Origin: Ascidia mentula | Lineage: Eukaryota > Chordata > Ascidiacea > Phlebobranchia > Ascidiidae | Assembly: GCA_947561715.1 (NCBI GenBank) | Contig: OX387203.1 | Location: 2,232,001-2,296,000 of the forward strand | Length of the DNA: 64,000 bases | Direction: 5' to 3' | In this document: piece by piece, positions 1,011 to 24,856 of the stretch | How the letters are laid out: every line of letters begins with the position of its first letter | Position numbering within the stretch: position 1 is the first letter of the stretch | The notes under the pieces: generated by a model | The model's input: the letters and a program-made list of their open reading frames with translations, nothing else | Told to the model about the DNA's origin: nothing | Databases searched by the model: none | Position numbers and translations under genes: made by a program

Positions 1011-1455
1011 CGTACAGGCTTTCGCAAATCCAGAAAAGATGACTTCGGCCCCTGCTAACGCCCAGTTCCAGCCTTACGCCCCGGTGTTTAACACACCTAG
1101 CAGGCCTGCATCCGCGTTGCCTGTCTCACAGATCCTCACCAGTGGCGGAATTCCGAGTCTCCTTGGCCAACCGCCGCCATTGGTCGGCTGTGGACCAATA
1201 GGAACATCGGGCGGGATTCTCGGTTCAGCCGTTGGAAACTTCGGTGTAGCGTTGCAGTCTGCGCGACGCTCACTGATGGCGAAACACCGCGGACCAACGG
1301 GTTCCACGCGCCCCAGCGGCCGTTACAGGTCCGGTAATGGATCCACTAGCAGTGAAGTGGATTTCACGTTGGACGTTGACCTGCCAGCGGGTGATTCTTC
1401 ACCTAACGGCAAAGATAAGCGCAAACCCAAAAGAGAAAAATTCCAGCCTTACTAA
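1011..1455 (+). CDS. Unrecognised Gly/Pro/Ser-rich protein, terminal or only coding exon
   Basis: An open frame is preceded by an acceptor-like sequence (TTTTTGTGCACAG, ending at 1010; a second AG ends at 1017) and closes with a stop at 1453-1455. The first ATG in the frame is at 1039 and would give a 138-residue protein. The composition is low in hydrophobic helices and rich in Gly, Pro and Ser. There is a central Gly/Leu-rich part (around ILGSAVGNFG), a basic stretch (SARRSLMAKHRG) and a Lys-rich end finishing KREKFQPY. GC content rises sharply against the flanks, as expected of coding DNA. Two readings are open. It may be the last exon of a gene from the left, or a short intronless gene whose mRNA receives a spliced leader at the AG just before the ATG, as many Ciona mRNAs do. 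I do not recognise the family. Confidence 0.55.
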
Positions 1456-2264
1456 ATACTTCAATATGAATGTCCTTCTTGCTAAGATATTGGCAAATAT
1501 TTCTTGTGGGTGGATTTGCTCATCAAGGTTTGGAATATTGCCAGTGGGCAGACGATGATGTAATTTTTAGCTTAACATGGCGCTTGTACTTCCGGTCACT
1601 GTATTTAGTATTTGTTTCAAAATTAATACTGACTTCGTACCTGACAAAATATTCCAGCAACAAATTATTCGCATTCGCCTGCTGAGGCCATGGATAACTG
1701 CTTCACATAGGATGTAACTGCAAAATGGCACATACGGTAAAGCATAAACAGACGAACAGGCAAAATTATGAGACAAAATACATGGCTTTTTTATACGGGC
1801 AACATAATTTTCCTGGATTGCCAAAACTCGTTGCCGAGAAATCCAAAAAATAACATTTTATCATGTGATGTGAATGGGATAACTGTTGCTGTGTTACTCT
1901 GCTTGTTTGTGTTTCAATAGTTCCAAACGTTCGACTAGGCGTTTATTAAATGCATGCTTGCACAAAGCACATGACTGTACAGTTTGAAGCAGCGCCAGCA
2001 TGATGAATATGCCTTGAATTCAAAGATTTTCTTCTTTAAACTAAGATATTTCAAGATTCGGCAAGGCGAGCGTTTGAACAGGAAGGCTATATATAAACAC
2101 TGCACAGCAACAAGCAAAGGTGTCAAAGAATTGGGTCTTCAGCAATCTTGGCGGCATTGGGAGGCACTTTCAGGCGCTAACCCCAGAGTCCTATAACGCA
2201 AAAAAGGTCTCAACAAAATACTGGTTACATTCACTTAGTTGGTGAACGAAATTACTCCACAGAG

Positions 2265-2450
2265 CAGTGTTTCCCAACCGGTGGTACGCAAGCACCTTTT
2301 CGTTATTTTCGGTTAAAAAATCGTAAGTGATCCCAATATTTTTGTTACTTCATTCCCTAGGTTACTTTGCAACACTCAACTAGGTGGTACGCGTTGAAAT
2401 TGTTTCACCTTCAAGTGGTACGCAACCACAAAAAAGTTGGGAATCACTAC
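2265..2450. mobile_element. Non-autonomous hAT-like MITE
   Basis: The element begins CAGTGTTTCCCAACCGGTGG and ends in the inverse form GTTGGGAATCACTA, with GTGGTACGC-type subterminal matches on both sides. This is the usual end structure of hAT transposons. Flanking 8-mers (CCACAGAG and CAGTAGAG) match at 5 of 8 positions, so the target duplication is imperfect. It is about 185 bp and has no coding capacity. Confidence 0.6.
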
Positions 2451-3578
2451 AGTAGAGGATAAGCTATCATTAGCCGTATAGTCTACATGTCAGAAAAAGT
2501 TTCACATTTTCGTTAGCACAACGATCAGACGTGATTGTCGAGCTATTTAATTAAAATTAAGCCACGTTGGATGTTTCCAAAACGGCAAACTTGTAAGTTA
2601 GTAGCCAGTATAATAGGGGAAATGACTACACTACTGCATTGATCACAGTTATTTGCTACTGTTTATTAAAGTTTACTGCGGAACTGAGACGCTGATTCAA
2701 GCATATCTCTAATGCGTTTTCCATCGTTGTGTAGCCTCTGCTGTCAGTGGTTTCACAGAATACGACGTCTTCTATAAATATAGATTTAGTGTCCTTTTGC
2801 ATGTGTAGCCTAATTTTATCTAACAGTAGCCTACGTTTAGTTTTAAAATTTATTTTCTTCATGGATGGTGAAAATGAATCGGCAAATTCCAACGATAATT
2901 TTAACGTGAAAAAAACATAAAAAAATTATATGCCTTGTTTGTTGAGTGTTGTCGCATTGATCGCACGTTCATTGACGTCTATCCCCCCATCAGAATCCAC
3001 CTGTTGAAAGACAAAAATGCCTTAATGTTCTTAGCCCACCGCGGGCCTTTACCACCATTCCAGATCGCAAAATAAACGTGAATTTTTTATAATTTTGGAG
3101 GCTATCAATGACGCCAGGATGATGATCTTATCGTATTAAACGTGAAACGTCTAACGTAGTGTGCCATACAATTGACAACCATATATGATGAAAATACATT
3201 TCAAAACTAGGTTCGGTATATGGCACTCCTGCGTGTTTATGCAAGTTGTATAAATTAAATCTGCTTGTGAATTAATTGTGCTAACTGATGTGTTCTACAA
3301 CGTAGTGTATATATGCATGTTATTATTTCACTAACGCTTGGCAAAAATATATATTAGACTTTCTTTACGCACGTCAGTGTCTTTCAGTAAGGATTCTTGT
3401 GCGTTCCAAATCATCGGCTTCGTCTCTGTTGATTCCACATTATCATTCTATCAAAAAATACCCCACAAACGGTTATTGGTATAGGCTTTTATACTAATTG
3501 TAGGGTTCATTTCAAACATTATGGGCCCAATTAATTAGTTTGTTAGTAAAAGCACCTACCGGGATTCTTTCGGTGATT

Positions 3579-3592
3579 CCCCCCCCCCCCCC
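3579..3592. repeat. Poly-C tract
   Basis: About 14 consecutive C residues, followed by ACCCC. Low-complexity sequence; exact length is likely to vary or be miscounted in sequencing. Confidence 0.8.
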
Positions 3593-4330
3593 ACCCCAAT
3601 TACTGATGTTTGAGATAAAAAGTTTAATTGCAATAATCAACAACAATCAATATGCTGGCGTTTGAAAATAACTTAAATTGCGTGTATAGTATTAAGCATA
3701 GTTGAACAGTGCAACATTGCGCAACAAATTTCACGCGAGGTCATGAAATTGCTCCCACACAAACACACACAAAGTAATCAACAAAAGCAGGCCGATTGCC
3801 AACGCAAGAGCGCCACTTAACAGCGCTCCTAATTTATTTCAATCTCCATGCACAAATTTAATGGTTTCAAACTGAACATATAGCCAAGACAGTTTGTCGT
3901 ATAGGGTTGACATACTTGAATTTCAACAGGAGATTACTTTCAGTCGTTTTTTGACGTCACTTGCCGTAGTTGCGAACCCAGGACCCCTAGGAAAGACTCA
4001 AGCAGCAATACATGACCAAAAAAGGCAATCGCCAAGACACCCGCAAGAATTTAGAACCCAAAACACGTAAGTTTTCGACAAGCTCTGTGGTAAAACACGC
4101 CCCTGGCCTGGTTTCGTTTTTCAGCATGTCGCTGCAAACTTTGTGTGTGTGTGTGTCATAGGTGGTACCGAGCGCAATACACAAACTTGAAATTTGTATC
4201 CGGAGGTTGATCTACAAATCCGCAAATCTTCATATGTCTCATTTTTCATATCAAGAACAGTTGTAGTTTCATTGTCATCAAGGATAATCTTTGTCATTAA
4301 AATTTTTAAATTTCTGATTAAAAATCTAAT

Positions 4331-4546
4331 TTACCAAAACGCCAAATTGGCGAATGGATTGCATAATGAGCAACAAAAAAGAACGCCTTGATTGATATTT
4401 TCACCGCTCTCATATTTATTAAGGACCTGGGTGGGCAAATACAAAGATACAAAAACATAATTGCCATTGTCCCGGAGGCTGGTGTATGAAGAACAGTACA
4501 AATCGTTTGTGTTTTCCTTCTGTATAACCACAAAATTTACGAAAGG
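4331..4546 (-). CDS. Possible cytoplasmic exon of the gp130-like receptor
   Basis: Downstream of the membrane exon (minus strand), an acceptor-like CGCGTAG precedes an open stretch. One frame contains tyrosines in contexts such as NGNYVFVSLYLPTQ, which would suit a receptor tail. Another frame fits the phase of the alternative donor after SVRNVSK. The two frames cannot both be right and the main donor (GTAAGA at 4646-4651) is in a third phase. I therefore treat this as unproven; the true tail exon may lie elsewhere. Confidence 0.2.
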   Translation of the reverse strand, partial: PFVNFVVIQKENTNDLYCSSYTSLRDNGNYVFVSLYLPTQVLNKYESGENINQGVLFCCSLCNPFANLAFW

Positions 4547-4651
4547 TTTTTCCACTACGCGATAAATAATTGTTAATATGTTAGTGCTGCGTCAGTATTT
4601 TATGTAGGCCAGTACTGCACAATAAACTCACATTTTGGAAACGTTTCTTAC

Positions 4652-7600
4652 CGATAATGAAGCGAATGCGGGCTGCGGGATGGCCGGACACAGATTTTTC
4701 TGTATTTTGCGTCGTTTCGCTATCACTATGGAAAGGATTATCACCAGGGCGATGGCACCAGTTGTCAAGGCAACCACCGATGCAGCACTGAAGTCAAAAT
4801 CAGAAGTATTGATATTTTGTGCGTTCCTTTTACGTTCAACTGAATGATCAAAATGCGAGAGCTGAGATCGCCAAATATAAAGCGCTGTGCTGATGGGGCC
4901 ATCCTGTCTTGCTACGCGAAAACATGGTAATTTGTTGAGCGTTGCCAATGTTTTGCATTGACCCGTTAGATCGTAAAAGTGTTGCTCTTGCAAAGGTCGA
5001 TTTTTAAAGTAAAACTTCTTATCTCGGTTATGAGGTTTCACACTAATAAGTTACAATCTGCAAAGAAGTTCTGTAGCGCGCTGAATAGTTTACAGAATAA
5101 AATAAAACGGGGCTTGTTTTACCTCAGTTCTTCTCTCCACCAAATTTGTTCAACTTTATTGCATGATCCTTCGCCATTCTGATTCCACATAGAAACACGC
5201 ACGTAATAATTTTGACCTGCTTGGAGCCCAGGAATTTCATACTTGTGCATGAAACCAGCTGCTGTTGCTTTGAGGTCTGTGGAAATATTGGACTGCTATC
5301 AAACCCAACAAATCGGCTGCAATTTTTTGGGTTGCTTCAATGACTTTAATAATATGACTAGCATAGGTGTCTTTGGTGACTTGCAATTGCCATTAAAAAT
5401 GTAAATTGTGCTGAATTTTACAGTTTACAACGAGGCAAATGGTGAAACTTACAGCCACAAACCACAGAGTCACAAACATGATTTGTATGGTCTCGGTACA
5501 GGATAGATTTTGTCTAACAATTTATAAACCTTGCGGTATATGGTCGATGTTTTGATATTAAACTTTATTTGGTTTGTTGAAGTTATTTGTAACAATAGAT
5601 CAAGTCTATCTCATTTTTCGCACCCTGTGTATTGTGTTTTAAAATGCGATTTGAAGTTTTTCTCCGTATAATTTCAGGCACCTTGTCTTACATTTATTCT
5701 TAATTTGCAGGTACTCATGCTGTGCAACATAAGAATACGACCAGAGACAGAAAAAAATCGCGATGACCTTTTTAATGGAGATCGCATGGCATAGTCGGTG
5801 GAACCCAGCCTTAACGATACGATCCCTTATTTTTAAAGAAAACAATGATGCTCGCGAGCCCACATTTGCTACTCATGGTCACCTCTTTATCGTGGGTCTT
5901 AAATATAACATTATGTCTAGGACCACTTTGCTTCTCTGTGATGGCGAAACATTTTCGGCGGGAAATGCCCCATTTTCACGCTTCAATGTCCAATAACCAC
6001 AGGAATTCGATGCGCCCCTTTTCCTCCCAATCTGGTTCGAGCATATTTTTGCTGCCGTTCTTGTGTAACAGCAACGCAAAGGCAATCACAATGCTCCGGC
6101 ACAAACAAAAAAATGCATTTTTAAGGAGCTTGAATCGTCCTCTATGGTGATGTCCTGTTTCACCGACACCGTTGCTTTGTTTTGAAAAAAACGTAGCTAG
6201 CCATCCAATAAAAACCAGTGATATTGCTGCAAACAGATCGACATAAAAGCCTGACTTCTATACAAACGAACCGTCGATACTGTTAAAATTAATTCAATCC
6301 AATCATGCACAAACTGCCGGCGAAGTGATTATTAATTTTACCATTTCATAACTTTTTACCTTCCTCTGTTATCTTCCAATTGGATTGAGATTGACCATCA
6401 GATTTTTGCAACACTTGTTTCACCATCAAAGGATGTGGACACGAGACTAAAAGTAAATTTGGGTCGGTACATTTATCATTGATTTTCAATTCGGCACAAA
6501 CAAGTTATTTTGCATCTGGAACGCTGGATTTCCTGCCAAAGGCTAGTATGACGTACTTTGACATGCCACATTGTTCGATACCAAATTAGGTGCGTGGCAA
6601 AATTTTTCGTCCGATATGTAGATGTTGTATCCTTCCAGTGAACCAACCCAACTTCCCAATTCGGGGTTACTCCAGGTCACTTCAAGCTCATCACCAGTTT
6701 TGTGGTCGAGGCTCACGTGAGGTTCATTCTCAGGGGCTAAACGGAATAGGATACAATCGCATGTTTGTCTGAGTTTGACAAATTCTTGAAAGTCCTAGAG
6801 TGGTCGAAGCGGATAAGGAGAATAATACCTGCGGTTTTAAAGAAGAACGCTGACTTCAGCTCGCTCGCTGGGCCAACACCAATGTCGTCGGTTTTGAAGG
6901 CCACGGCGAATCTGTAAGCCTTAAATGGTCTAAAATTGAAGTTGACGAAGGCTTCAAATTCCTGGTTTAATTGCCTGCAAAAGAGAATGTCTTGTATATC
7001 GCCCAAAGTGGCCTGAAACGGCGTAAACCAACATAAAACACAACCACGGCATGTTGTCAAAACAAAACGAACTCAGTTGTGTGTTTCTCAGTAATTACCT
7101 TTTAACTGGAACCGTCACCGACTGCAGCTGCCACAGCGTTTCTTTTTGCTGCCGCTTGCTCGCGACTTTGTGGGTTGAAGGTTGTGGCGTTATTCTGAGT
7201 AAAATATCCAATTAATATTCTCTCAACGAGATAATTCATATGTTGTTATCGGAGACCCTAAAGACATCTCGTTATTCTTAAACGCGGTTGGCTGTAAAAA
7301 CGTTTGGAATAACGCCTTGAACAAAAAAAAGACCGACCCAGGCATGACAAGAGTTAGTCAGATCAACTTGTGACTTGTGACTATAACTTACCGCCTCAAA
7401 TCGGGTCGACCGACGCAACCCCTTACCTCTTGGCGTCACAATTTCCTCGTACGTTTTTACGGCGAACAAAAACTCTGCGACTACACATTAACAGATGCGG
7501 GAGTAGCAACACGTGTTATGTTGCAGTCAATGTTAACCGCAGCCAGTGATAAGGTAGGCGTATCGCGCCGCAGGAGGTAACCCGAAGTCCCAGAGCTTTG

Positions 7601-10600
7601 TGTTCTCACGTTACAGTAAGGTGGGCGTATCGCGTTTTCCCAACTGCACTAGAAGTTTGCTGTGTATAACACTTGGACCTCGCTACTTTGCTACGTATTG
7701 GTTTACCTAGATTTGCATTTCCTAAACTGTTGCTAAAGCAGATGAGCTCCGGTCTATTCCATATACTACTAACAATCGTTCCAATGTTCAAAATTTGAAG
7801 GATCATGTTCCGAAAATACATAGTGACCTTTAGGTGGTCAACCAGCTTACCTGCCAATATCAAGCAACGCTATGTGGGGCTGACCACGAGCTTTCGTCGG
7901 GTCCACGGTGATAAGAACACTTTCACGAGGTTTTGATTGGTCCGAATTGCTAAAAAAAGTTCCATTTTACCACTATGAGCAAACAGTAAAGCATTTTACT
8001 GTTTTTCAGTGACAAAGTGTTGCCATCGACTGATACGTCTAATGCAGTGTTTTCCAAACTAGGTTTTGTGGAACCCTTTTATCAGAAAATATTAAGGGAA
8101 CGGTTTCCATGAGTTACTACCTGGTTGGTATTATTAAAAAAAACTGCTCAACATGCTCGTATTTGGAGGTTCCAACCTAAATAACCTTGAAGGGTTCCAC
8201 GGACGTGAACGTTTGGGAAACACTGGCTTACTGAACGTATGATGTTGGGAAACTATTCATACCTGGTTTGATTAATGTTTGTTTTTTGCACCAAAGACCG
8301 GATGTCGTATTCTTTACCGCCCAGAGGCCAGAAAAAAACGTTCAGATTTCCAGTTTCAAGCTGAACATTTGTGTTATGTTTTTAAAAAAAAAACTATTTA
8401 TGGTGATTTTCAGTCGGTCCATATTAATTGTACATTTAAACTTCAGGCAAATTTACCCTTAATACTGTTCAACAGCACATACCGTATTATAATCCATACA
8501 TTTCGGACACCTAATTTGGAAACGAATTTTGGCTCTGCTTGAATTCATGACCACGAGGGAGGCGTTTTCCACTGCATATCGGTCTGAAACAACAAGGAAA
8601 TGCCTTTTTTATTAGTTTTTATTAGTGTGTAAAAACCGATTAGGAAATAGTTTTTTTGAAAGGGTCGTATACCGGTTAACTTGATTTCATTCGCTTCAGA
8701 ATCTCCTACGTCGTTTCTACTGCTCACCGAAACTCTGCAGTTGGCCAATGTCAGCGCTTGCGATTCTTGGCTGTCAAACAAGCAAACTGTGGTTAAGAAA
8801 TATATAGTAAATCGGCGTATACGCCCTGTGTATTCTTGCACATATGCTTAAGCGGGTCGCGATCTCATGATTGGGATGTAAAACTAACAACGAAAGTTCG
8901 TCAGCTTTTAGTTGATGGGTTAAATGAATACAGTTGACATATGTAACATAAAAAGCTTGAAACTAGCTTGCTTTTTTGCACAAATATTGTTTCTAGCCAG
9001 AGATATTGCATTGACCCGGATCAAAATATAAACACGCTGTATTTTTATGCCAAAATTGGATATATTGCTGAACTTTGTCAATGTTATGAAACTATTAGAA
9101 GTTTCCGATTGAAGTCAGCTAATATATTAGCTATATCGAAAAATCAATTTCGCTCTGGACGGACATCCTTAGTGCCAACTAGAGGGCTAGATTCTGAATC
9201 AATTAAGGAACCAGTCTTACTAAACTTCGTTGTTTTGTTGGAGTTTGAGTTATTCTTCTGTCAGGTCGATGACCCTTATTTTGTAGGATGGTTTACGTGC
9301 AACTGTTTTGAGTAACACTACTCAGTCTAAATCCGTCTTGCAGCGCGTGCGACGGTGCGTATTATGCTGACTACACAGGTTACTAGGCTACTTAACCATG
9401 AACATTTTGCGGTTGGCTGAAACAAGGGATAAACTTTCGGTCGGTCTAATAACGTCGAGTCAGCAAAGCTCCCTGGAACTTACCCATTGCAAGACGTGTT
9501 TACGGCGAACGCATCGACTGTTATGCGTTTGTGGCTGTACCGTGGTATCTGTTGAACAGAAAAACGGACAACTGTGATGGCAAATATGGATTCACTTTAC
9601 AGTTTTATACGGAAAAAATACCCACCTCGCTGCAAGCTATCACGGCTAATTCAAATGCTGATTTTTGTTCCGTCTGTTCACGCAGTTCTACAGGCAAATA
9701 ATGTAATGTTTTTATAATAATGTAACGGGATATGTGTATGGCGGATTTTATTGAATATTGCAAAGGTACAAGTTACATTCGCCCTACGAGGCATATTTAA
9801 GTGATCACTTCACTAAATCCTTTACATACAAAAATCGCCGAACACGGGTCTGGGCGCTGGGGCGGAAATCGTTTTTCTAACGATCGGTTTGCAACTGTAA
9901 CATACGTCACAGAAACCAGTGCTTGAATTGCGTAATGTTTTGCGTGCAGCTTTGCACAAGTATTGCATAATCCCACAATGTGACCCAAATGATTTAGCCA
10001 TCGAATATTCTCGAGTAAAGTGATTCATTCAACATCCTGTTTACCACATAAAATGTTCTCCTATGCTTATGTCACATCACACCTATGTTCTTGTATTATA
10101 TTACTTCAAGCGCCTCATGATATCACGTGACATTATTGACCAATCAGCTCTCATGATGGAGAGCGCAAAAGAGCCCAGTTTTTACCCGTAAAATTTAGTC
10201 AAGTCAAGTCTAGTCTTCGCCATTCTATTTGCTGTCATCCTATCAACGTTGTATTGAAAGCTGTAATGTACCGTCGTAATGAAGAAGATAACAGAAATAA
10301 ATACAATTATTCGGGAAGAGATCTTGGTTCTGGGTGCTTTATAGAACGGGGCAGAAGCAGGTTTACCCATCAAAGAGACTCAATAACCGCTCAGGCCATC
10401 GAGACACTGTTAAATATCTCAGAAACACTTCGAGTTATTTACACAACATAACCTTTTTATTTGTCGTTATAGTATAGAGTCTATACTATAGACGGTGCCA
10501 TTATTCGTAAAAGGTAGCAAATTAATTGCCAAGAGATAAGATGAAAAAAAAATGTTGTGATGGCCTGGTGGGTTGCTGCTTATAATCTCCATGGGATGCC

Positions 10601-13600
10601 AGCATTAATTATAATTTGCATTGTTTATTAGAACAAAACACCCTTTGCGGTAGAGATTGTGCACTCATAACGTTCTAGGCAAAAGAAGTTTTGTGGCAAC
10701 ATACAGTACTTTCTGATTAAACCCAACGCATTGTCTTAGCTTTCTTGGCCTTAACTCAAGCAATACCGTTTTTAATCCACATAACAGCCACGCTTGGACT
10801 CGACGGTGCAGTGGCGGGCGTATGAACAACCTTGGGCAATGTGAAACTGCTCCACAAGTTGTTATTACCATTGAGATCGATTATACGTCCTCGTATAGCC
10901 ACTGTAGTGTTTCCTGCGACGGGTATGCGTGCCTGTATAAAAAAAAGCAGAAAGTCCGAAAGTGCTCGTTCCAGTCGACACTAAATACCTGAGGTTGGGC
11001 CGAAAAACCCCGACTTTTCTTGATTTTTCATGTCAAACGCAATAATTTATGTTGCGAGGGCTCGTTTTGCCAAAGTTGTTAACAAAGCCGAAATATTGAT
11101 AAAGGAATACATAAAACAAACTCAGATACTTTTTCAACAAGAACTGACGATGTTAACTTGTTGGCAAATCGAACCCTCGCAAAATAAATAATTACGTTGA
11201 CATGGAAGTATCAAGAAATGAAACAAACGACTTAGTAAATTTGACCCGGTAGAAGAAGTATGTTGCTCTGTACCTCTTTGTCACAAGCGTAGTCGGTCTT
11301 AACAATCGCGCCTTTCCAAAACTTGTAGTTTTCCTGTTGGCGACGATGGTCTTCTGCAATTTGACCACGCGATTTCCATTCCTCCCAGAAGTGATAAACG
11401 CCATGCTCTTGCAACTGCATGCGCGTCATGAACACGGGTTGATCCGTGTATTGTATCTGCAACTATCCAATGTCCTGTTTTGTACATGGTCAGTGCCGTC
11501 TTTTACTTAAAATTTTAGAAAATTTTGGCGCTGATCGTCAATCACTTTATGTTATTTTGGATACCTATCAAGACAGCACAGATCCGCCGGTAGCACCCAG
11601 CAAACAGTTGTCTGGATTACATTTTTTTCCTTTTGATTTTTTGATTACATTAAACTACTATTTGATAACCTACTGCGTATTGGTAGAAACTGCATGTGAA
11701 AGTCTCGATGCTTCCCAGATCAACGATAATATAAGCTGTTCTTTTGTTACTTCCCTTCTCATCAACGCGAACGTTGAATATGTTTAAAGGATTGGCCATA
11801 ACTGAAATACATCACCATAAGATTGGTTCTGAATAATTTTGCATGGCTTATTCTGCTTCTATTGTAAAACTGTTGCTGGCAGGCATATCACAATTTAAAA
11901 TAGACCGATTGATCCTCTGGCATAAAATTGACGTACTGTATTCTCGACGTTTTGTTTGTCACACGGCCAGGCTTCAAATCCTGATGAAGTTCGAAACCTG
12001 GCCGTGTGGCAGACGAAACGTCGAGAATACAGTATGTTATTTTTATGCCAGAAGATCGGTCTTTTTTAAATCGTTCTACTTCTGTATATTTGTTTGCAGT
12101 ACTCACGTCGAATGGGAGATTCGATAGAAGTTGATTCCCGGCCAAGTTCATTCCACGCTTCGACCGTCACGGTCACCACGCTAAAGATAAAGCTGTAATG
12201 CGCTGGAAAGTCACAGAAGTTCCTATCTCGTTCTACTGTGCAGAACAACACATCTTTCCCGCCTCCATGTCTGTTGACAAGACCTTCAGGTATGTAAATA
12301 TGTCCCTTTATCTAACACAGAAACAGAAAAAAAAATATCCACACAACGGAAATATTTAACCGCAACGAACAAAACAAACAGTAAAGCCCATGCAACGTTT
12401 CAATGGTTTGAAAAATGAATTTGTTAGCAGTTACACGGCTTTACTGGCGGTTTTTAACAAAATCTGCCATGCAATACCTACAGCACTTGAGCTGACATCT
12501 TATGGCCTCAATGGACGGCGTTTTAACAATATATTATACAGTGTCCACAATAATACTTTCCCACAAACCGGACAGTGATTCCAATATATGTTATTTAGTC
12601 CACTTACGTCTCTGTGATTCGAACTGTGAGATTGTATCTGGTGTCGTATGCGTTCAGATCATCACCTATTTCTCTTCGCTGCGATTTATCCCACCTACAG
12701 CTAATTCTCTGCGCCCCGTTCAACAAGCAAGCTAGATTAGTCGGTTTCTTAGGTGGAACTGTGTGAACAAAAGTTGGCAAAGCGTCACTTATATTTAAAT
12801 GGTAAATATCTTGTGGTGTTTCGGATTAAATTTATATTGAAAGAAACACAGTTTGTCCTCCATATGATTCATCTGGTGGTAATTGTCACACTCTGCTGTA
12901 AACAAACGAATTTTTGCCATATGCCACTGTTTTGTCAGTCGTACCAATGCCATACAACCACATAACCAAGTCCAGGACGAACATTGGAGAGCATCTATAC
13001 AAGGTGTTGGTAAACTATTCGGCTTACAGGCCTGAAATTTAAAGCAAATGTCCGTTGTTTGAACCAATCTATTAACAATAAGGTTCACTGACATCGCAGC
13101 TAAGGCATTCCGGATAAAGTGACTTAGCCACTCAAGTTTCCGCGGTGAGGTCTGGGTTAACTATAGGCCTTATGCACCACCGACTTAGCTACAGGAGCTC
13201 AGCGGTTTTGCGGGGTATTTTGTGGTCAAGGTACACTGGTGCGCAAGCGCACAACATGCCAGGTGACTTTCACATATATGTATCTCCACCACCGTAAACA
13301 GACAACGCAGAAGTGTTTCTTATTAGCGCATGGCAAGGCAGGATCGCCCAACTGCGCATGCCCTTTATACTTGGGAATCTTAGCTCGAGAACATGGCATG
13401 TGACAGTTGTACTTCTGCGTTATTACATTAACTAACGTTCAAGTACAGTCAAATAAATTGAAACTTCAATTTTACCATTTTGCTTGTACGGCACCAATTT
13501 ATATGAACCTGTGGCAGGCGAGATTAACACACAACGCACCGCATTTGCCCCGTCGGTCCGGGGTGATCTATAGGTTTTCGCTCACAAAACCAACACTTCA

Positions 13601-16251
13601 CCTGCAACATGCACATCCCCGCCATCGTAATGTCCTGCTTCATTTAAGCAATGTAAAGGCACAACAAACAAGGTCTCCGGAAGTTCATGAAATTCGTCGT
13701 CGGGAAATGATTTCTGAAGAAGATTTCATTTCAAATCCATGCTTTGTATTTTTAAGTTTGTGCTGAAGGTTTTAGGCTGTATCTCGGACTGGTTCGCTGA
13801 TACTACACGCCTGCGGAAACTTTTGAAACTCTTTACAGAACTTAAATGATTTGTAATGTTCTTATTTTATCACAAAAATATATTTTATTACAATCTAATC
13901 TTTTAAGTCATTTGTTTCAATTGTTAGAAGTTTCGTATTTTTTCCGAAATCTTATAATTACAAGTCACTGCTTGCCTTGAACTTAACTTACATAAAGCCT
14001 TACCTCAGTCCAATTCCGGTACTGCGTTTTACAATGAAGTGACTTGACCTTGAAATCGGGTAAAGCTTCAACAAAACAAGTGACCTGTAAATGGGAAAGA
14101 AAACTAAAAATTACTCGTCAGGTCCTCGTGGGGCGTTACCCGGAACGCAAGGACCTCAGTTTACAACACATCGGAAGAAGAATTAAGGGGTCCTCGAGCC
14201 CACAGGTTGGGAACCACGAGTCTACGTAAATGGATATAACTAAATAGTTATTACGTACCCACTGTGCACTCCCATTTCTGCCGCTGCTGGAAAAAGTTAG
14301 TCCTCCAATGTTCCAGTCGACTCCCTGGTAAAGTGATGCGGTTTATTTGTGTAAGAGACAACGGCATTGCCACGCTATAATGTATGTAAGGCATGTATGG
14401 CATTGTTGGTGGCGTGCAGCGTGGCACATGAAATTGTTGATCTTAATATCCTCGAAAAGGGATACTTTCTTTGGATTTATTAATCGTGTTTCCTTATGTT
14501 AAGCAAATGCTTTTATAGGAGCAAGTCCAAAGAGAAAGTTTACGGCCTGTGTCAGACTTGTGCAAGACTAGGGGTCCTTAAATAGCAAATAAAGTCAATT
14601 AGTGATACTGACGATTCGAATTGTAGTCGAAATATATCAGAAACAAACAAAAAAAACAAATGACTTGGGTTTTCTTTACATAACTTGTTAAAAAATCTCA
14701 TACCAAGTCTTTGTTGCCCATAAAAGACTATCGGTAGATTCCTATCCACTTTTAATGAGTTCTATCGAGGCCAATGTATATTATTATTTTACTTTACAAC
14801 TGAGGATTTACTATCGCAAAGGTTTGGGGTGCATCCCTATTGTGTGGTCATCAAAACAATTCTTCGGAAGGTGAATTTCTCTCTTAAGGTTCCTACATAG
14901 GATCGGTTTAAACGGGAAACCGACTTGCAAGCAGACGCGAAATACTTAAAACTACGCCGTGTTTTTGCCCAAAACAGAATAACAAGACCGCCTATGAAGA
15001 GGGGATAATACACCCAAGTAGCCGTGCTTTGTATGACCTTAGAGGGGATCATACACCCGTCTTCGTTCAGACTAGAAGCTTCGGAACATGTTGGGTCATG
15101 AAGGGATGTTTACTACGGCGTCAGTGTTTAACGAACCGAGCGCGGGGCTGAACTTTTGCGCCCAAAAACGACATGGCGGAAACCACATATCCCTCCGTAC
15201 TAAACCAATTTTATGTCAAACAAATTGCAAATAGTCAAGTGATCTGCACTCGCTTTTTGTTTATTTTGTGCACTTAAATGGGGTATATCTAAATTGCCAA
15301 AAAAGGGTAGAATCAGTGAACTGATGTTTGATGACACGCACTAAATTGCAAAGAAAGTAAATTTTTGATTGGGATCATGTATGCCGTTTTATGGCCTGAA
15401 TTCAAAAAAGTGGGTAAAGTATACATGCATATTTTTTAATGATTAAATTGGTAATTAATTTGTATTCATAGGCTTTTCTCTTTGAAAATCCAAGTTGCCG
15501 ATTGCATAACCTTTGCAGTTTTGTCAACAATGTTGTAGTTAAACTAGAGCACCAGCATTCACTTTTTGTGTCTTATCCCGATTTTATGGGGTCCAACTCG
15601 ATGTTACAATTTTCTTCTATTCTCACGGTGTAGTTCTAGTTCTTATAAGTTAGTTTTGACATAAAACTCACCGACTTCCCAGCTGTGGTGCAAGTAAAAG
15701 TGAACTGTTGTCCGGGTTTAACAACTGCATGTAATGGTACCTGGCCGGCGCCTGTAGAAACAAAGCAAAAGCTTGTGTATGGCAATATGGCATTGTTCTT
15801 ACTGGTGATTGGGATAAGCACAACTTGCATTAGAATAATATCTAGCATGCAAGTAAACTAAACAACAAAAACAATTTATTACTACAAGAGGCTCTTCTGG
15901 CAAAAATATTTCTACTTTATACAACTGTTATTGACAACTGATAAGTAAGTATCAACCTTTCGGTTACTATGCAGCAGCCTTCATTAGGGTGATAAACGTG
16001 CAAAAAAGTTTTATTTATTAAAAAAATCTTCTTTTTTGTTGTTGTTCAAAAAACGCTCCGTTATTAACGAATCGTTGTGCTATTGTGTTGGGTCAACAAA
16101 TCGTCGTATTAGCTCGTTGTGCTGCATATATAAACGCGACCATGGGGCAAATTCAGCACAGCTTATTTAAAAAAAAAACACACAAAACATAAACCTCACC
16201 CGTCCATCCAGCGAGGAAAACCGCAAACAACGCAAATGGCAACAACGACAT
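4652..16251 (-). CDS. gp130-like class I cytokine receptor (Ig, CHR, 3x FnIII, TM, box1)
   Basis: Exons placed on the minus strand: 16251-16200, 15751-15672, 14324-14259, 14084-14004, 13031-12959 (weak donor), 12731-12608, 12270-12107, 11456-11323 (weak donor), 10932-10767, 9548-9484, 8770-8673, 8583-8511, 7949-7851, 7765-7707, 7480-7392, 7196-7099, 6974-6829, 6736-6557, 6446-6360, 5276-5123, 4889-4652. Phases agree at nearly all joins; one small exon between 10.7 and 9.6 kb is missing. The first exon is a signal peptide (MSLLPFALFAVFLAGWTG). Exons 2-4 form an Ig-like domain with Cys in FTFTCTT and SLHC. Next comes the cytokine-receptor homology region: ISCRWDKS, VLFCTVERD, TVTVEAWNELG, GGMEIAWSN, then LWSSFT at the WSXWS place. 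Three FnIII domains follow (landmarks VSVSSRNDVG, AVAFKTDDIGVG, YEIPGLQAGQNYYVRV), then the helix VVALTTGAIALVIILSIVIA, KRRK, and CPAIPQP, like box1 of gp130, which binds JAK. Order and count of domains equal gp130/LIFR. The cytoplasmic tail and 3' end are unresolved. Confidence 0.78.
8045..8225. mobile_element. Non-autonomous hAT-like MITE
   Basis: A 181 bp element begins CAGTGTTTTCCAAACTAGG and ends CGTTTGGGAAACACTG, with inner inverted matches GTGGAACCC / GGGTTCCAC. Flanking 8-mers GTCTAATG and GCTTACTG match at 5 of 8. It lies in an intron of the receptor gene and codes for nothing. Both ends are well preserved, which suggests a fairly young copy. Confidence 0.75.
11902..12062. repeat. 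Snap-back element with about 75 bp arms
   Basis: A near-perfect inverted repeat. The left arm (11902 to about 11979) contains TACTGTATTCTCGACG and CACACGGCCAGG; the right arm (about 11988-12062) carries CCTGGCCGTGTGG and CGTCGAGAATACAGTA. The loop reads CCTGATGAAG. The ends are GACCGAT / ATCGGTC. It lies in a receptor intron, about 45 bp from the splice donor of the exon at 12107-12270. RNA from either strand would form a long hairpin. Confidence 0.8.
14114..14220. mobile_element. Fragment of a hAT-like MITE
   Basis: The right end CCACAGGTTGGGAACCACGAG-type sequence is the inverse of the common hAT terminus CTCGTGGTTCCCAACC. A poorly matching left end with AGGTCCTCG is seen near 14114. It lies just upstream, in gene orientation, of the receptor exon at 14004-14084. 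It is too degraded for a duplication to be read. Confidence 0.4.
15888..15990. repeat. Short snap-back repeat, family A copy 1
   Basis: Shares a block with the copy at 28005-28125: here CTATGCAGCAGCCTTCATTA on the plus strand, there the inverse form CTGATAAAGGCTGCTGCATA. The outer arm GGCTCTTCTGGCAAAAA is also shared. On the minus strand the core reads CTAATGA, hairpin, CCGAAAG, one substitution from a hammerhead core. It lies in the first half of the receptor gene, in an intron. Confidence 0.55.
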
Positions 16252-19200: not shown

Positions 19201-19780
19201 ACTGGCAAGAACGATTACTTGGGCGTTTGTAGCGAAGTGTCAGCTAACGCGCATTGTCCAACAGGGTGTCAAAAAGCTTGTGGAAGCTTGGTTTACTATG
19301 TGTTGTTGTGTTGGTAAGGCATTCTAGGAAAGATAATTAACGTCAATTGTGGAAATTGTGTCAAACAGAAAGTTGATTTTACTGTGCGAATACACAATTT
19401 GTAAGGCGACGAACTGCGGGTTTTTGCTTGGAAGGCGATTTGTATTCGCAATCACACGACATGGAAGTTGAAAAATCACTCAGGGTGGTAAATGGAGTCG
19501 GTTGTTGCTGTGGTTGGGTCACTACAGACTAGATGAGCGTTGAGTCCTCAGATTGCATTCCTGCCCTTGCGCAACTACACACTGTGAATTTGAAATGAAA
19601 CAAACCATAGATTTAGCACACATCCATTATTGTACTGAGGGCTTGTGCAACATCCACATATATATTTAACACCTAGTTATAAAAGTAATTTCAGCTAACA
19701 TTCCATCGAATAACGTTGTATGATGTATTTTTTTTTCAATGCTTAGGTACCCTAGCAATTTCGCATATCATACTGTAACT
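16260..19780. other. 3.5 kb gap between divergent receptor and sulfotransferase genes
   Basis: The receptor reads left from 16251 and the sulfotransferase reads right from 19789, so this gap must hold both upstream regions. No exon with splice signals was found. An open frame at 17428-17760 (minus, 110 codons) shows no domain. A T-rich run followed by TCAATGCTTAG ends at 19746, about 40 bases before the sulfotransferase ATG; it would serve as a splice acceptor for a 5' intron or for a trans-spliced leader. Confidence 0.45.
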
Positions 19781-19788
19781 GTGTGAAC

Positions 19789-22700
19789 ATGCTGAGTTAC
19801 AAACTGCAACGCTCGCATTCAACACGGGAGCAAGCCCAGCAGAAGTTCAGTTGCATCATTCGTTTCATGACCACGCGATCTGTATGTTTGTCTGTTGTGG
19901 TCAGCCTTTGTTTTCTTTCGGTTCTTTTGACCGCAACAAACTTCACCTATGAATCCTACCCCGGGCGCTACACGATTGGTCCAAGAAAGACAGATGTAAA
20001 AAGTGACGTTCACAGCCCGCCGGAACGGTTCGAAAGTTTGCAAACTATGAAGCCTGTTACTAACGCACTGCCGGAAGTTAAGAAATCAAGAGCTTCGTGG
20101 AGCAAGAAAATGGAGTCGGTTTTCAAGCGGCTGGAAGCTCGACAGAATATATCGGCAAGGGCAGTCGGCGTGGAAAACGCGGAGACACAAAAGCTCTTCA
20201 AGAAGGTTGAAGAGAATCGGATGCAGCAGAAGGATGTTGGGAGCGACATGGGTGATAAGACAAGCGGTAAGTGTCGGGATTACGCTTAAATCGGCCGAAC
20301 AGGACCCGATCAAGTTCTTATTCAAGGTTGCCGTTTACTGTGGAGTTATCTAAAATTGCATGACATCATAATGCAGTTTGGCGGTAATATGCTGTAGAAA
20401 TGTATTCGTTAACGGAAATACTTCCAATACTCTTTGCATTTCTTTGGAATAAAATGCAAAAAAAACAAATCTGCAAACCAAAGCCTAAATATTTTCTCCC
20501 GGCAAATTCAAAGATAATTCGATTGTTAAAATTTGTAACCTATATCATATGTTGCTGCTAATTTAGATTTCTGTTGCTTTGCAAAATAAGCAGAAAATCA
20601 TATTTTGCATAATAGAAGAAGGTTACGACCCGATGATGGGCAGGGAGGAAAAGGAAGACGATGTCATGGATCCAAAACGAGCCTCGTTTTTGAAAAGCGC
20701 CCTTCAATATACAACAACCTACAGGTCTCGATATCATCACTACTACAACGAACCCATCAAGCTTTTACCTGCTCAGACAAAAGGTGCGTGTTAAGTGCGG
20801 TTGTCTGCCTCATTTATTTCTAATTTGTGTGTCAGGGCATTACCACAGCAAAGCAATTAAATAATGGAGAAGAAGCCAAGTGGCCAGACGGGTTTAGATT
20901 TAAATGCAATGAGGTACTAACTCAATGTTTGCGACAGCCTTATTTTCAACGACAGATTTTAACAATCGCAGTATGAAAGGCTGTGGTCTGATGTGGGTAT
21001 TTAATACATTTTTTACAGACTTTATGGCCACAATTTGGCCGGAAACTTTGAGGCTCTTTGTCGTTCTCTCTGTTCCCGGCCTATCTTTTGTTACTTGTCT
21101 AAAGTCTGTGTATTTAGTGGGCGAACAAATCCTACAGGCTATGCAGTATCGTCAAAGCCTTCGCCGGTTTACCTAAATATACTTGAATGAACCCCAGAAC
21201 AGATAGAAGTCACCACAATTCATTCTGCTGACGTTTTACTTTACAGTTTGAACATTTTGCCATTCATGGTTATTCAATTGAATAAATTAAGCCAACCCAC
21301 TTACGTTAAAACTGTGGCGTCATAACGTATTTTTTATGGCAAATCGTTTGGTATTAGGGGCGTTCCTCAGTAAGTCATTTGACCGATAAACCGCGACCAA
21401 GCACCGTTTAAACACAGGAATAATAATACAGCTGCGACGCCTTCTTGCGATTTCGTATTTTCATCAAGATATCATACGTTGCGCAATATAAATACGAAAA
21501 TACAGAGAAAATCGCGTATATACAGATTTGTAGAAAGCAATGGTAGCTAAATTAACTTAGTTCTACACCACAGAAGCAATTTAAAACTCAAATGATTTAA
21601 GCAGTATTGAATCAAAGTCAAGATATAAAGATTCCCAAGCAGCTCCCAGTGGAATTAAGGCAACACCTCACTATCAGACGTAAACCCCATAAGAGCCGCC
21701 CCAAGGGACGAGAACGCCCAGAGGCAGCCAAACAAAAGAGGCTCGACAAGCAAAGTGACGTGCTTGCTCTGTTAACCCGCTGTTTAAGACAGTGCCATTG
21801 ATTATCTGACATGTGCCTTTATCGCTTGTGTAGGTGTCATCATTCTGACGAACTACCGCTCGGGATCCACATTCTTGGGGCAGCTCTTTAACCAACACTC
21901 GGACGCGTTTTACACATTTGAACCTCTCCTTCCGTTCACCAGCTTTTGTCCACGTGAATTGCCCCACATGGCGCAGGTGTTGCATCGAATGCTCAAGTGC
22001 GACTTTCCAGATATGATCGAGTTGTACTCCCGTATGAAGGGACCAATGCGACAAAGCCACCTCGACGTCGAATGTTTAGTCGACAACTTTTGTTTCCGGT
22101 GAGTAAAACCATGAACCAAGGTGTACTAAAGAGATCAAGAGGTTCTTGCCGATACGTTTATCGCATCATTCTAACTGTTGCATCCAAATTCATTTACCAA
22201 ATTTGATCTCAGATAAGCGGAATTGATTTTTTTAAATACATCTGCTGACATAAATTGGAGTCTTGTTGCTTCAAAAGACATATAATACCTATTGCAGCAA
22301 TTTGCTGTCGCATAAAAAGACGATGCCTAACCGAGGGACAGATTCTCATACAGTTGATAAACAAATTTTACCAATATTGGCAAGCTGCAGACAGGGTGTG
22401 TACACGCACTGTCTGCAGCTTACCTTTATTATTATGGCTTTTTTTTGCACAAATCTTACCAAATTTGAAAAAAATTATAGTTAAAATCTAAAATCTAGTT
22501 CTAAATTTTGTGGGGTTGACCAAATCCCAAACCCAAGTTTTGCATGTTGCGAGAACGTCTTACTGCATCGCAGGCCTCAAATAGACCTTCAATCGATTAA
22601 TGCGCGACGTTTTCCATGGAAACCGCAAGTAACTATATAGCAGATATGATAGGTCAATATGCTGATGTGATGCAACGAAAACTCGATACTTAATCGCAGA

Positions 22701-24856
22701 TCGAGTCAACTTCATGAATATTTTATCGAAAACCTTACCCCTTATCGCATTATCATGTTGCCCCAGGCGAAAGACGGATGAGTTATGCGGACAGAAGCTC
22801 TGTCCATTTGGTGTTCAGCGGAAGTGTGCCAAGTGCGGGCCAATCCATTTGCCCAGAGTCAACAATCAATGCCGTGCCAAAAAAGTAAGTTTTGGACTAT
22901 TCTGTAGTATAGTTTAATCTGTAGGGCATTACTAACGCACAATAAACCTTGGATTATATGGATTTCATATATCCGATAAATTCATCCAGGTATAAAAAGT
23001 AAAACAAATTGCTCCAATTTCATCAGAATTAAATCCGAATTAAGCGAGTCAGAAATAACCGAAGTTTCCTGCAGTTAAATATTGTGGAATTTTTGGCGGA
23101 CACAGACACAGCACCATGCATGCAACATTTAGGGAACAGACGATCCCTTAAAGCGAAACGTGCATAATCATTAAAGTCATCAGACTTATCGTGTTCAAAG
23201 CAAATACTTTGTTTGTTTTTGTAACGTTTCGGGTTAAAAATTCTCAACGTTGTAATTCGTAGTTACGTTTTTTCCTTGTACCAAAACCACAATGACTCAT
23301 GGAATCCAAACATTCACTTATTTTAACACGAGTTGGCTGTTGACAGCAAACTTGCCATTTGGAAACGAACATGCAACTTACAATAAATACTTTTAGATGT
23401 CTGTTATCAAAGTGATCCGTCTGTGCGATGTAAACGGACTGAAAACAATCGTCAATGACCCTACCATGGATCTGAAGGTAATTGTTGGCAATGATTGAAA
23501 TCCTACACCCTAAAGAAATTATGAAAGAAATATTCCTTTTTTATTTAACTACGTTTGGCTTAATTGGTCGATGAAAGTGCCAAAAAATAAGTTCTTACCA
23601 CAAGCAAGATCGTATAGAAGAGTCTCACCAAGCTGCACACTGATTAGACCTAATAGGTCGAAAAATGGTCATGTCTGTCTGTCGCTTACATTTTATGTTT
23701 TTCGTTGGTTTCGCACAGTTGGAGTACGACAAAGTCTCACATTAAATCGAAATTAACAAATGTATGAAGACCTCTGCTAATACTTTATTTTAGGTAATTC
23801 ATTTGGTGCGAGACCCAAGAGGAATTCAAAGCTCCCGTTTAAAAATCGACAAGAAATGGAAGATGAAGGACAACTCAAGAGACACTTGTGCCAGACTTGA
23901 GAAAAACGCGAGACAGGGATTCGGCAACACTAGCGCAACAGAGTGGCTGAAAGGAAGATATCTCCGAGTTAGGTGCGAGAAGAATAAATATTTTTTGCCT
24001 ATCACTACGTGTTCTTGAATTATTGAGGTTCAAATACCACGAGTATCTGCATAGTATCTAATATTTCCAAAAGCGTTATTACGCTTTGTGTGGTAGTTGC
24101 TTTAAAACCTTTAACATTTGCATTGACCACATGAAAAATGGAACTTCCGATTAGCAACAGCTCTCTGGTCTCAGAATCTACTCTTTTATCTATTTCGTTG
24201 TAAGCTTAATCTTGGGGTCTGTCATGGATATAAAAGTAGATCTTACTAAGAAACCTTCCTTAAAATATTGACTCATTTCTCCTTTCGCCAAAAAGTGCAT
24301 CGCAAATTTGAATCAGAGAATACTGACGATGCCTTCAGGCCCTGGCATACTGGTAACCTAAAGAAAGATATTTTGCAAAGATCTGATATTTACTCTGCCA
24401 TATTCATATGGTTCCGATATTTTTGCCTTTTTCTAACTTATTGTCATATTCATTAAGTTGTTTCAAAGCCTAACATAAACTTACCGTCGGAATTTCACTA
24501 TTTTACAAATTTTCAATCGCAAACTTATATTGTGCAGATATGAAGACCTGGCTTTGGAGCCATTCAAGAACGCTGCCGAGATTTACCGCTTCGTGGGCCT
24601 CGACTTTCAGTCCAAGATAAAGCGTTGGATCGCTCAAAACACACGCGGCGGCGAACAAGGAGAAAACCGCAGGAACCACGCATTTACCACGAACCGAGAT
24701 TCGGCTGCAGCCATGGAGTCTTGGAGAAAGCATTTGACTTTCGGGAACGTTACGGCGATCCAGAAAAACTGCAAGCAAGTGATGGACATGTTTGGTTACA
24801 CACCTGTAGCCAGCAAAGCTCAACTACTCGATTTCGACATGAGGCTTATTTCGTGA
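19789..24856 (+). CDS. Carbohydrate sulfotransferase, Gal/GlcNAc/GalNAc 6-O type (CHST1-7 family)
   Basis: Seven exons, all phases agreeing, give 535 residues: 19789-20266, 20616-20783, 21834-22098, 22767-22884, 23397-23477, 23794-23972, 24538-24856. Known role of the family: Golgi transfer of sulfate from PAPS to C6 of a sugar in keratan or chondroitin sulfate or related glycans. Visible: a type II membrane anchor at about residues 31-50 ([20 protein letters not shown]), a charged stem of some 160 residues, and the PAPS 5'-phosphosulfate loop TNYRSGSTF at about 221-229. A cysteine-rich part follows ([17 protein letters not shown]), then the 3'-phosphate site [15 protein letters not shown] at about 371-385, and the usual C-terminal YEDLALEP and WRKHLTF. 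The domain is complete, so the enzyme should be active. Which sugar it uses cannot be told from sequence alone. The start is the ATG opening the anchor; an upstream in-frame GTG is not used. The 5' acceptor at 19746 hints at a non-coding leader. Confidence 0.93.
22381..22423. repeat. Short inverted repeat, family B fragment
   Basis: AAGCTGCAGACAG and TGTCTGCAGCTTA face each other around GGTGTGTACACGCAC. The same CTGCAGAC...GTGTACAC ends are present in the larger copies at 45877-45972 and 61036-61150, so this looks like the outer ends of that element with the middle lost. It lies in a sulfotransferase intron. Confidence 0.55.

Follow-up and report, generated by a model that had tools for sequence, protein, structure and literature searches.

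Does a gene of the tunicate Ascidia mentula encode a cytokine receptor of the gp130 kind, and which of the known receptors does it most resemble? The question arises from a 64,000-nt stretch of DNA (the window, C71:2232001-2296000), in which a sequence-only reading had recognised a gp130/LIFR-type receptor. Both strands of the region were read, and we assembled the gene manually from the minus strand. Genome-wide searches covered an assembly of 195,842,439 bases (195.8 Mb) in 79 contigs, compared with 95 scaffolds and 197.0 Mb given for kaAscMent1.1 in the available text of its description (PMC11109543). Our analysis indicates that the gene very probably encodes a gp130-like class I cytokine receptor, on the contig matching chromosome 7 and in the only copy seen. 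The locus contains one open, phase-consistent exon chain for a single-pass protein whose cytokine-receptor homology region (CRH) falls in the gp130 group and which carries a box1-like PxxPxP motif.

Mitochondrial code of the host

The earlier reading had placed the gene in the prehistory of the vertebrate family on condition that the host was a tunicate. Contig C79 (19,461 bases) is mitochondrial: within the first 9,900 bases COX1 lies on one strand, and cytochrome b, COX2 and other frames were recognised by eye on that same strand. Across 485 gap-free aligned residues of COX1, AGA or AGG codons (n=16) stood opposite mammalian Gly 13 times, Ala twice and Gln once, and never opposite Ser or Arg. 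TGA stood at Trp in 6 of 6 cases and ATA at Met in 12 of 19 within the same alignment. AGR encodes glycine in the ascidian mitochondrial code, so the COX1 codons identify the host as a tunicate, as that reading had supposed. A CelA profile gave 2 genome matches, neither above the cut-off, and also produced matches in 11 of 14 control genomes, so it was set aside as host evidence. A voltage-sensing phosphatase exon, which matched human TPTE2 (1.6e-20) about as well as a PDB voltage-sensor phosphatase (9.5e-20), was likewise set aside.

An exon chain on the minus strand

Reading of the genomic DNA yielded 23 exons, running from 16251 to 4652 on the minus strand in a single frame of 853 residues:

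16200..16251, minus: exon 1 (A), ATG start codon with signal peptide MSLLPFALFAVFLAGWT, from hydropathy
15672..15751, minus: exon 2 (B), Ig-like domain begins (..QQFTFTCTTAGKS); Pfam I-set and ig below cut-off
14259..14324, minus: exon 3 (C), Ig-like domain, by reading
14004..14084, minus: exon 4 (D), Ig-like domain, by reading
13602..13713, minus: exon 5 (D2), Ig-like domain ends (LPETLFVVPLHCLNEAGHYDGGDVHVA), phase 1 end; aligned with IL-12R beta-2
12608..12758, minus: exon 6 (E), first CRH module, PPKKPTNLACLLNGAQRISCRW, from PDB-sequence matches and motif
12107..12270, minus: exon 7 (F), second half of first CRH module, from PDB-sequence matches
11674..11801, minus: exon 8 (G), second CRH module, from the exon chain
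11274..11456, minus: exon 9 (H), second CRH module, from the exon chain
10767..10932, minus: exon 10 (I), end of second CRH module with WSSFT at the WSXWS place; next FnIII-type module begins
9626..9687, minus: exon 11 (J), FnIII-type module, by reading
9484..9548, minus: exon 12 (K), FnIII-type module, by reading
8673..8770, minus: exon 13 (L), FnIII-type module, VSVSSRNDVGDSEANEIKLT, by reading
8483..8583, minus: exon 14 (M), FnIII-type module, by reading
8263..8360, minus: exon 15 (N), FnIII-type module, by reading
7851..7949, minus: exon 16 (O), FnIII-type module, by reading
7427..7480, minus: exon 17 (P), least certain exon; phase-fitting frame less FnIII-like than the AEFLFAVKTYEE frame
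7099..7194, minus: exon 18 (Q), FnIII-type module, by reading
6829..6974, minus: exon 19 (R), FnIII-type module, FKAYRFAVAFKTDDIGVGPASELKSAFFF, within a weak PTPRD match
6557..6736, minus: exon 20 (S), membrane-proximal FnIII domain; Pfam fn3 7.9e-09, residues 674-794
6360..6446, minus: exon 21 (T), insert in membrane-proximal FnIII domain, within the Pfam fn3 span
5123..5276, minus: exon 22 (U), YEIPGLQAGQNYYVRV, in the membrane-proximal FnIII domain and the Pfam fn3 span
4652..4787, minus: exon 23 (V), membrane helix followed by box1-like CPAIPQP; phase 0 end at a splice donor

The minus-strand ATG at 16251 was confirmed as the start. All 22 internal junctions are GT-AG and phase-consistent. 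Exons and sites were picked by eye to fit, so this agreement supports the model without being independent of it. When each site was left out in turn, all 23 donors scored at least 3.8 (458 decoys: 90th percentile 2.8, 99th 7.1). Acceptor scores obtained in the same way were mixed, with 5 of 22 at or below 0.5 (383 decoys: median -1.8, 90th percentile 3.9). Codon-usage scoring was too weak to judge frames: for exons C, M, Q, T and V, among others, an alternative frame scored at least as well as the one in the model. Exon P scored -0.3 in the phase-fitting frame and 2.3 in the frame reading AEFLFAVKTYEE. The latter more closely resembles an FnIII F strand, but it has no in-phase join to its neighbours and was set aside; the phase-fitting frame was kept for that reason and marked uncertain.

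The hydropathy of the joined protein is that of a single-pass receptor. Exon A encodes a signal-peptide-like N-terminus, and a single strong membrane helix lies at residues 812-830 (mean hydropathy 2.8, 19-residue windows), both as first read. Box1-like CPAIPQP, likewise anticipated, follows just inside the membrane at residues 841-847. Among 19-residue windows starting at residues 31-789, none exceeded 1.3. These data bear on whether two adjoining genes have been merged, a soluble Ig-CRH protein upstream and an FnIII membrane protein downstream. The chain was read entirely from genomic DNA, three introns are longer than 1 kb (B-C 1347, I-J 1079 and T-U 1083) and exon P is uncertain, all of which would allow such a merger. 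Against it, phase is continuous through every junction, the joined exons encode only one strongly hydrophobic stretch ahead of the helix (a statement about exons, not introns), and the domain order agrees with that published for both Ciona and gp130, as far as the cited part of PMC1963337 describes it. We therefore regard a merger as very improbable and retain a single gene.

Intron F-G contains an imperfect inverted repeat (window 11911-12057) of two 68-base arms, 87% complementary and separated by 11 bases. Its 20 genome matches are spread over several contigs, in the manner of a small non-autonomous transposon. Exons of other genes were also observed. On the plus strand of the window these comprise a sulfotransferase exon at 24479-24856 (Pfam Sulfotransfer_1, 1e-09), a BACK (BTB-kelch) exon at 27097-27495 (5.7e-11), an EF-hand exon at 48292-48906 (1e-07) and a Vps52 C-terminal exon at 58935-59459 (3.5e-19). 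A plus-strand frame at 19756-20289, which matches no Pfam family and contains a stretch resembling a membrane anchor, may be the 5' part of the sulfotransferase gene.

A cytokine-receptor homology region of the gp130 group

Family membership was assessed by phmmer against PDB sequences, with unrelated matches in the same lists as background. The whole protein matched 27 sequences at E<=10, including 19 class I cytokine receptors (14 gp130, 2 IL-12R beta-2, 2 G-CSFR and 1 CRLF1); the others were 4 PTPRD, 1 contactin-3, 1 Mrr domain and 2 LolC. With a 291-residue CRH query, class I receptors accounted for 22 of 26 matches at E<=10: the same 14 gp130, 2 IL-12R beta-2, 2 G-CSFR and 1 CRLF1, together with 3 prolactin receptor sequences. 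Best E-values were 2.3e-05 for IL-12R beta-2, 7.7e-05 for gp130, 7.1e-04 for G-CSFR and 0.003 for CRLF1. The four remaining matches had E-values of 0.17, 1.6, 1.6 and 2.2, so the best unrelated score was 0.17 and the claimed homology region is confirmed. A match of this region to a non-cytokine FnIII family, which the sequence-only reading had named as the outcome that would speak against it, did not occur. As gp130-group receptors matched first, the region belongs to the class I family and is nearest the gp130 group. These matches also support the interpretation of the gene as a gp130-type receptor.

Motifs within the CRH, which is single in our model and spread over the five exons E-I, were partly canonical. 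The first cysteine pair, C141-X9-C151-R-W153, agrees with the class I definition CX(9-10)CXW. That definition continues, in the accessible part of PMC1963337, with X(26-32) after the W and then CX(10-15)C. The second pair (C191/C200) departs from both published ranges, with spacings of 37 and 8. Human gp130 in the PDB alignment gives 25 and 9, likewise outside, so the published ranges are not strict. WSSFT occupies residues 366-370, the expected WSXWS place, and the exact motif is absent; WSXWS is described as highly conserved although slightly variable (PMC1963337, cited passage).

A Pfam search of the joined 853-residue protein returned 9 families at E<=1, and fn3 alone passed its cut-off (one match, residues 674-794). 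Below cut-off were Pur_ac_phosph_N (5.5e-05) and Ig_Rha78A_N (0.0034) on the last module, EpoR_lig-bind (0.0015, residues 131-224), LIFR_D4 (0.01, residues 132-230), I-set (0.046), ig (0.068), IL2RB_N1 (0.13) and PKD (0.5). Results from eight single-exon frames were weaker than those from the joined protein. The Ig-like domain that had been proposed is thus faint in Pfam, but the IL-12R beta-2 alignment (query 104-159) spans the end of the domain and crosses into the CRH. The count of three FnIII domains did not survive: one fn3 domain is above cut-off, and the roughly 440 residues from WSSFT (366-370) to the helix (812) have room for about four. This suggests about four FnIII modules between CRH and membrane, all but the last predicted from spacing and reading.

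General FnIII similarity could also account for gp130 likeness if the ectodomain were that of an Ig/FnIII adhesion protein or receptor phosphatase. Residues 633-726 do match PTPRD (4 of the 27 sequences, best E 0.0042), residues 627-706 match contactin-3 (0.65), and fn3 is the sole Pfam family above cut-off. The CRH nonetheless matches class I receptors better than it matches other proteins, and CX9CXW is present. We find an adhesion or phosphatase-like ectodomain hardly credible, and a gp130-like receptor remains the best explanation. The Pfam class I models below cut-off, WSSFT, the 37/8 cysteine spacing and the mixed acceptors count against that explanation, as do the less FnIII-like frame of exon P and the assignment by reading of the Ig-like domain and of every FnIII-type module except the last.

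The original label was gp130/LIFR-type, of which the first half stands, as the CRH matches the gp130 group. LIFR and OSMR are of the same receptor group, and the weak LIFR_D4 match lies below cut-off. No LIFR or OSMR chain appeared among the 27 whole-protein or 26 CRH matches to PDB sequences at E<=10. We use gp130-like and not LIFR-type because the model has one CRH, whereas that of LIFR is duplicated (PMC1963337, in the part available).

A search of the whole genome with the CRH plus the next module found no second gp130-like copy: all 8 matches (E<=1) fell within the window gene, in a search that a very divergent paralogue would escape. A search for further class I receptors with the EpoR_lig-bind profile gave two genome matches (E 0.06 and 0.916), which were discarded because their surroundings were read by eye as cathepsin-like and oxidase-like genes; this profile search is insensitive, missing the window gene itself.

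Candidate cytoplasmic tail exons

The sequence-only reading had ended the gene at 4652. That position is instead a splice donor, where the last modelled exon ends with LCPAIPQPAFASLS preceding GTAAGA, and candidate tail exons lie downstream, the best terminal one ending at 2926. We searched 1300-4651 for chains of at most two internal exons, with acceptors of at least 0 and donors of at least 3, scored with the splice sites and codons of the gene's own ectodomain exons. The candidates were:

3373..3447, minus: candidate tail exon Z, NDNVESTETKPMIWNAQESLLKDTD, phase 0 at both ends; used by the top-ranked chain of the filtered search
2926..3000, minus: candidate terminal exon W, VDSDGGIDVNERAINATTLNKQGI, stop at 2926; AATAAA or ATTAAA hexamer at 2854
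4427..4519, minus: rival candidate tail exon X, KENTNDLYCSSYTSLRDNGNYVFVSLYLPTQ; acceptor good, in-phase donor weak
4187..4288, minus: rival candidate tail exon Y, ..NETYEDLRICRSTSGYKFQ, holds YXXQ; poor acceptor

Among 853 chains, V-Z-W ranked first (10.9) and V-W second (7.4). V-Z-W would give about 71 cytoplasmic residues and 902 residues in all, V-W about 46 cytoplasmic residues, and neither tail contains tyrosine. Exon X, which does contain tyrosines, has an acceptor of 7.8, an in-phase donor of 1.3 and an other-phase donor of 7.3; exon Y, with its YXXQ tyrosine motif, has an acceptor of -3.1. Both Y and X's in-phase donor had been removed by the filters in advance, so the search was no fair test of either exon. 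The Ciona protein, which reaches at least residue 1124, is longer than the best chain, and this also counts against our best explanation, as does the lack of tyrosine in the tail of that chain.

These tails raise the question of whether the receptor signals by itself. With a short, tyrosine-free tail it could be a decoy or a JAK-only chain. Both top-ranked chains and the poly-A hexamer at 2854 fit such a role, and there is a precedent in Drosophila, where short Latran antagonises Domeless (PMC2914635, in the text available). Several points weigh on the other side. The box1-like motif is kept, and the genome search found no second gp130-like chain to antagonise. Tyrosines are present in both rival exons (one lies within the YXXQ), and the filters kept Y and X's in-phase donor out of the ranking; the splice and codon models, moreover, derive from the gene's own ectodomain exons. 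On balance a receptor that does not signal alone seems unlikely.

JAK-type genes, STAT matches and a proposed mechanism

Candidate downstream partners are encoded in the same genome. A FERM_F2 profile search identified two neighbouring loci on C71 at about 8.02-8.03 Mb (L022:1133-4597 and L022:6186-9506), each a single open frame, with 1155 residues in the first and 1107 in the second. Both contain FERM and two kinase stretches, and the first also has an SH2 match. Against PDB sequences this first frame matched 7t6f_A, a 1173-residue tyrosine-protein kinase chain, at E 1.3e-109, and JAK-family kinase domains made up most of the best 60 of its 828 matches. The STAT_bind profile matched the genome at 3 places, a close pair on C71 and a single site on C2. 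For the sea squirt, the part of PMC3296744 cited here reports one JAK and two STATs; A. mentula has two neighbouring JAK-type genes against the one JAK reported for Ciona. Some 11 to 16 kb from the JAK-type frames lies a CelA-like cellulose synthase stretch (C71:8043861-8044481, E 1.1e-29, below cut-off).

We propose that a helical cytokine would bind the CRH, perhaps together with the Ig domain, and that two receptor chains would then pair. JAKs docked at the putative box1 CPAIPQP would phosphorylate each other, and STAT would be activated downstream. This last step is the least certain, because the tail exons are only candidates. The chain would most likely act as a homodimer, because only one such gene was found; Liongue and Ward made the same proposal for the gp130-like protein of Ciona. 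There is a small but real chance that the only gp130-like receptor found has a short box1-like tail without tyrosine, in which case JAK/STAT signalling would proceed without receptor phosphotyrosine docking, or the chain would not signal.

Comparison with known receptors

The PxxPxP pattern of CPAIPQP resembles the box1 of vertebrate gp130, with Cys in place of the box1 Trp. Vertebrate gp130 (IL6ST), IL-12R beta-2 and G-CSFR resemble the window gene, with its putative Ig-like domain, in having one CRH, FnIII modules and a helix, and provide its best CRH matches. Relative to gp130, the window gene has WSSFT for WSXWS, a longer gap between cysteine pairs and probably four FnIII modules where gp130 has three; any box2 or STAT sites would lie in the tail, for which there are candidate exons. 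Drosophila Domeless and Latran are likewise invertebrate gp130-like receptors with JAK/STAT partners. The Domeless homology domain lies on one exon according to the cited part of PMC1963337, unlike the five-exon CRH of the window gene.

The closest counterpart is found in another ascidian. In the available text of their 2007 study, Liongue and Ward described two class I receptors in Ciona intestinalis, gp130-like and CLF-3 (PMC1963337). There, cigp130-like (BN000969) has an Ig-CHD-FBN-TM-box1 layout with a split CHD, homodimeric signalling was proposed for it, and ESTs cover residues 662-1124. By that published description the two genes share a tunicate host, a predicted Ig-CHD-FnIII-TM-box1 order, a multi-exon CHD and one gp130-like gene found per genome. 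They differ in length, the Ciona protein reaching at least residue 1124 against 853 residues and a candidate tail here, and in host, a different ascidian (Ascidiidae). We infer orthology from layout and copy number.

The idea of a pre-vertebrate family member therefore stands as to the tunicate host, but the gene is not the first of its kind, given the Ciona intestinalis member published earlier (PMC1963337, available text). A literature search on Ascidia mentula and cytokine receptors found no report. PMC1963337 places most class I receptor diversification after the tunicate-vertebrate split, and a tree including a Ciona IL6R has been published (PMC13203501, part seen). Published accounts of gp130 origin differ: within the accessible part of PMC8226699, the text says mollusks and a figure legend says lampreys.

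The A. mentula gene is a new ascidian member of a receptor kind already described in Ciona in 2007, a useful addition and not a surprise. No invertebrate group is closer to the vertebrates than the tunicates. Adding an exon map for a second genus of ascidians makes it easier to separate features that are likely ancestral, such as Ig-CRH-FnIII order and split CRH exons, from those that vary, such as the exact WSXWS, the box1 Trp and the STAT tyrosines. This tunicate gp130-like gene refines the known picture without changing it.
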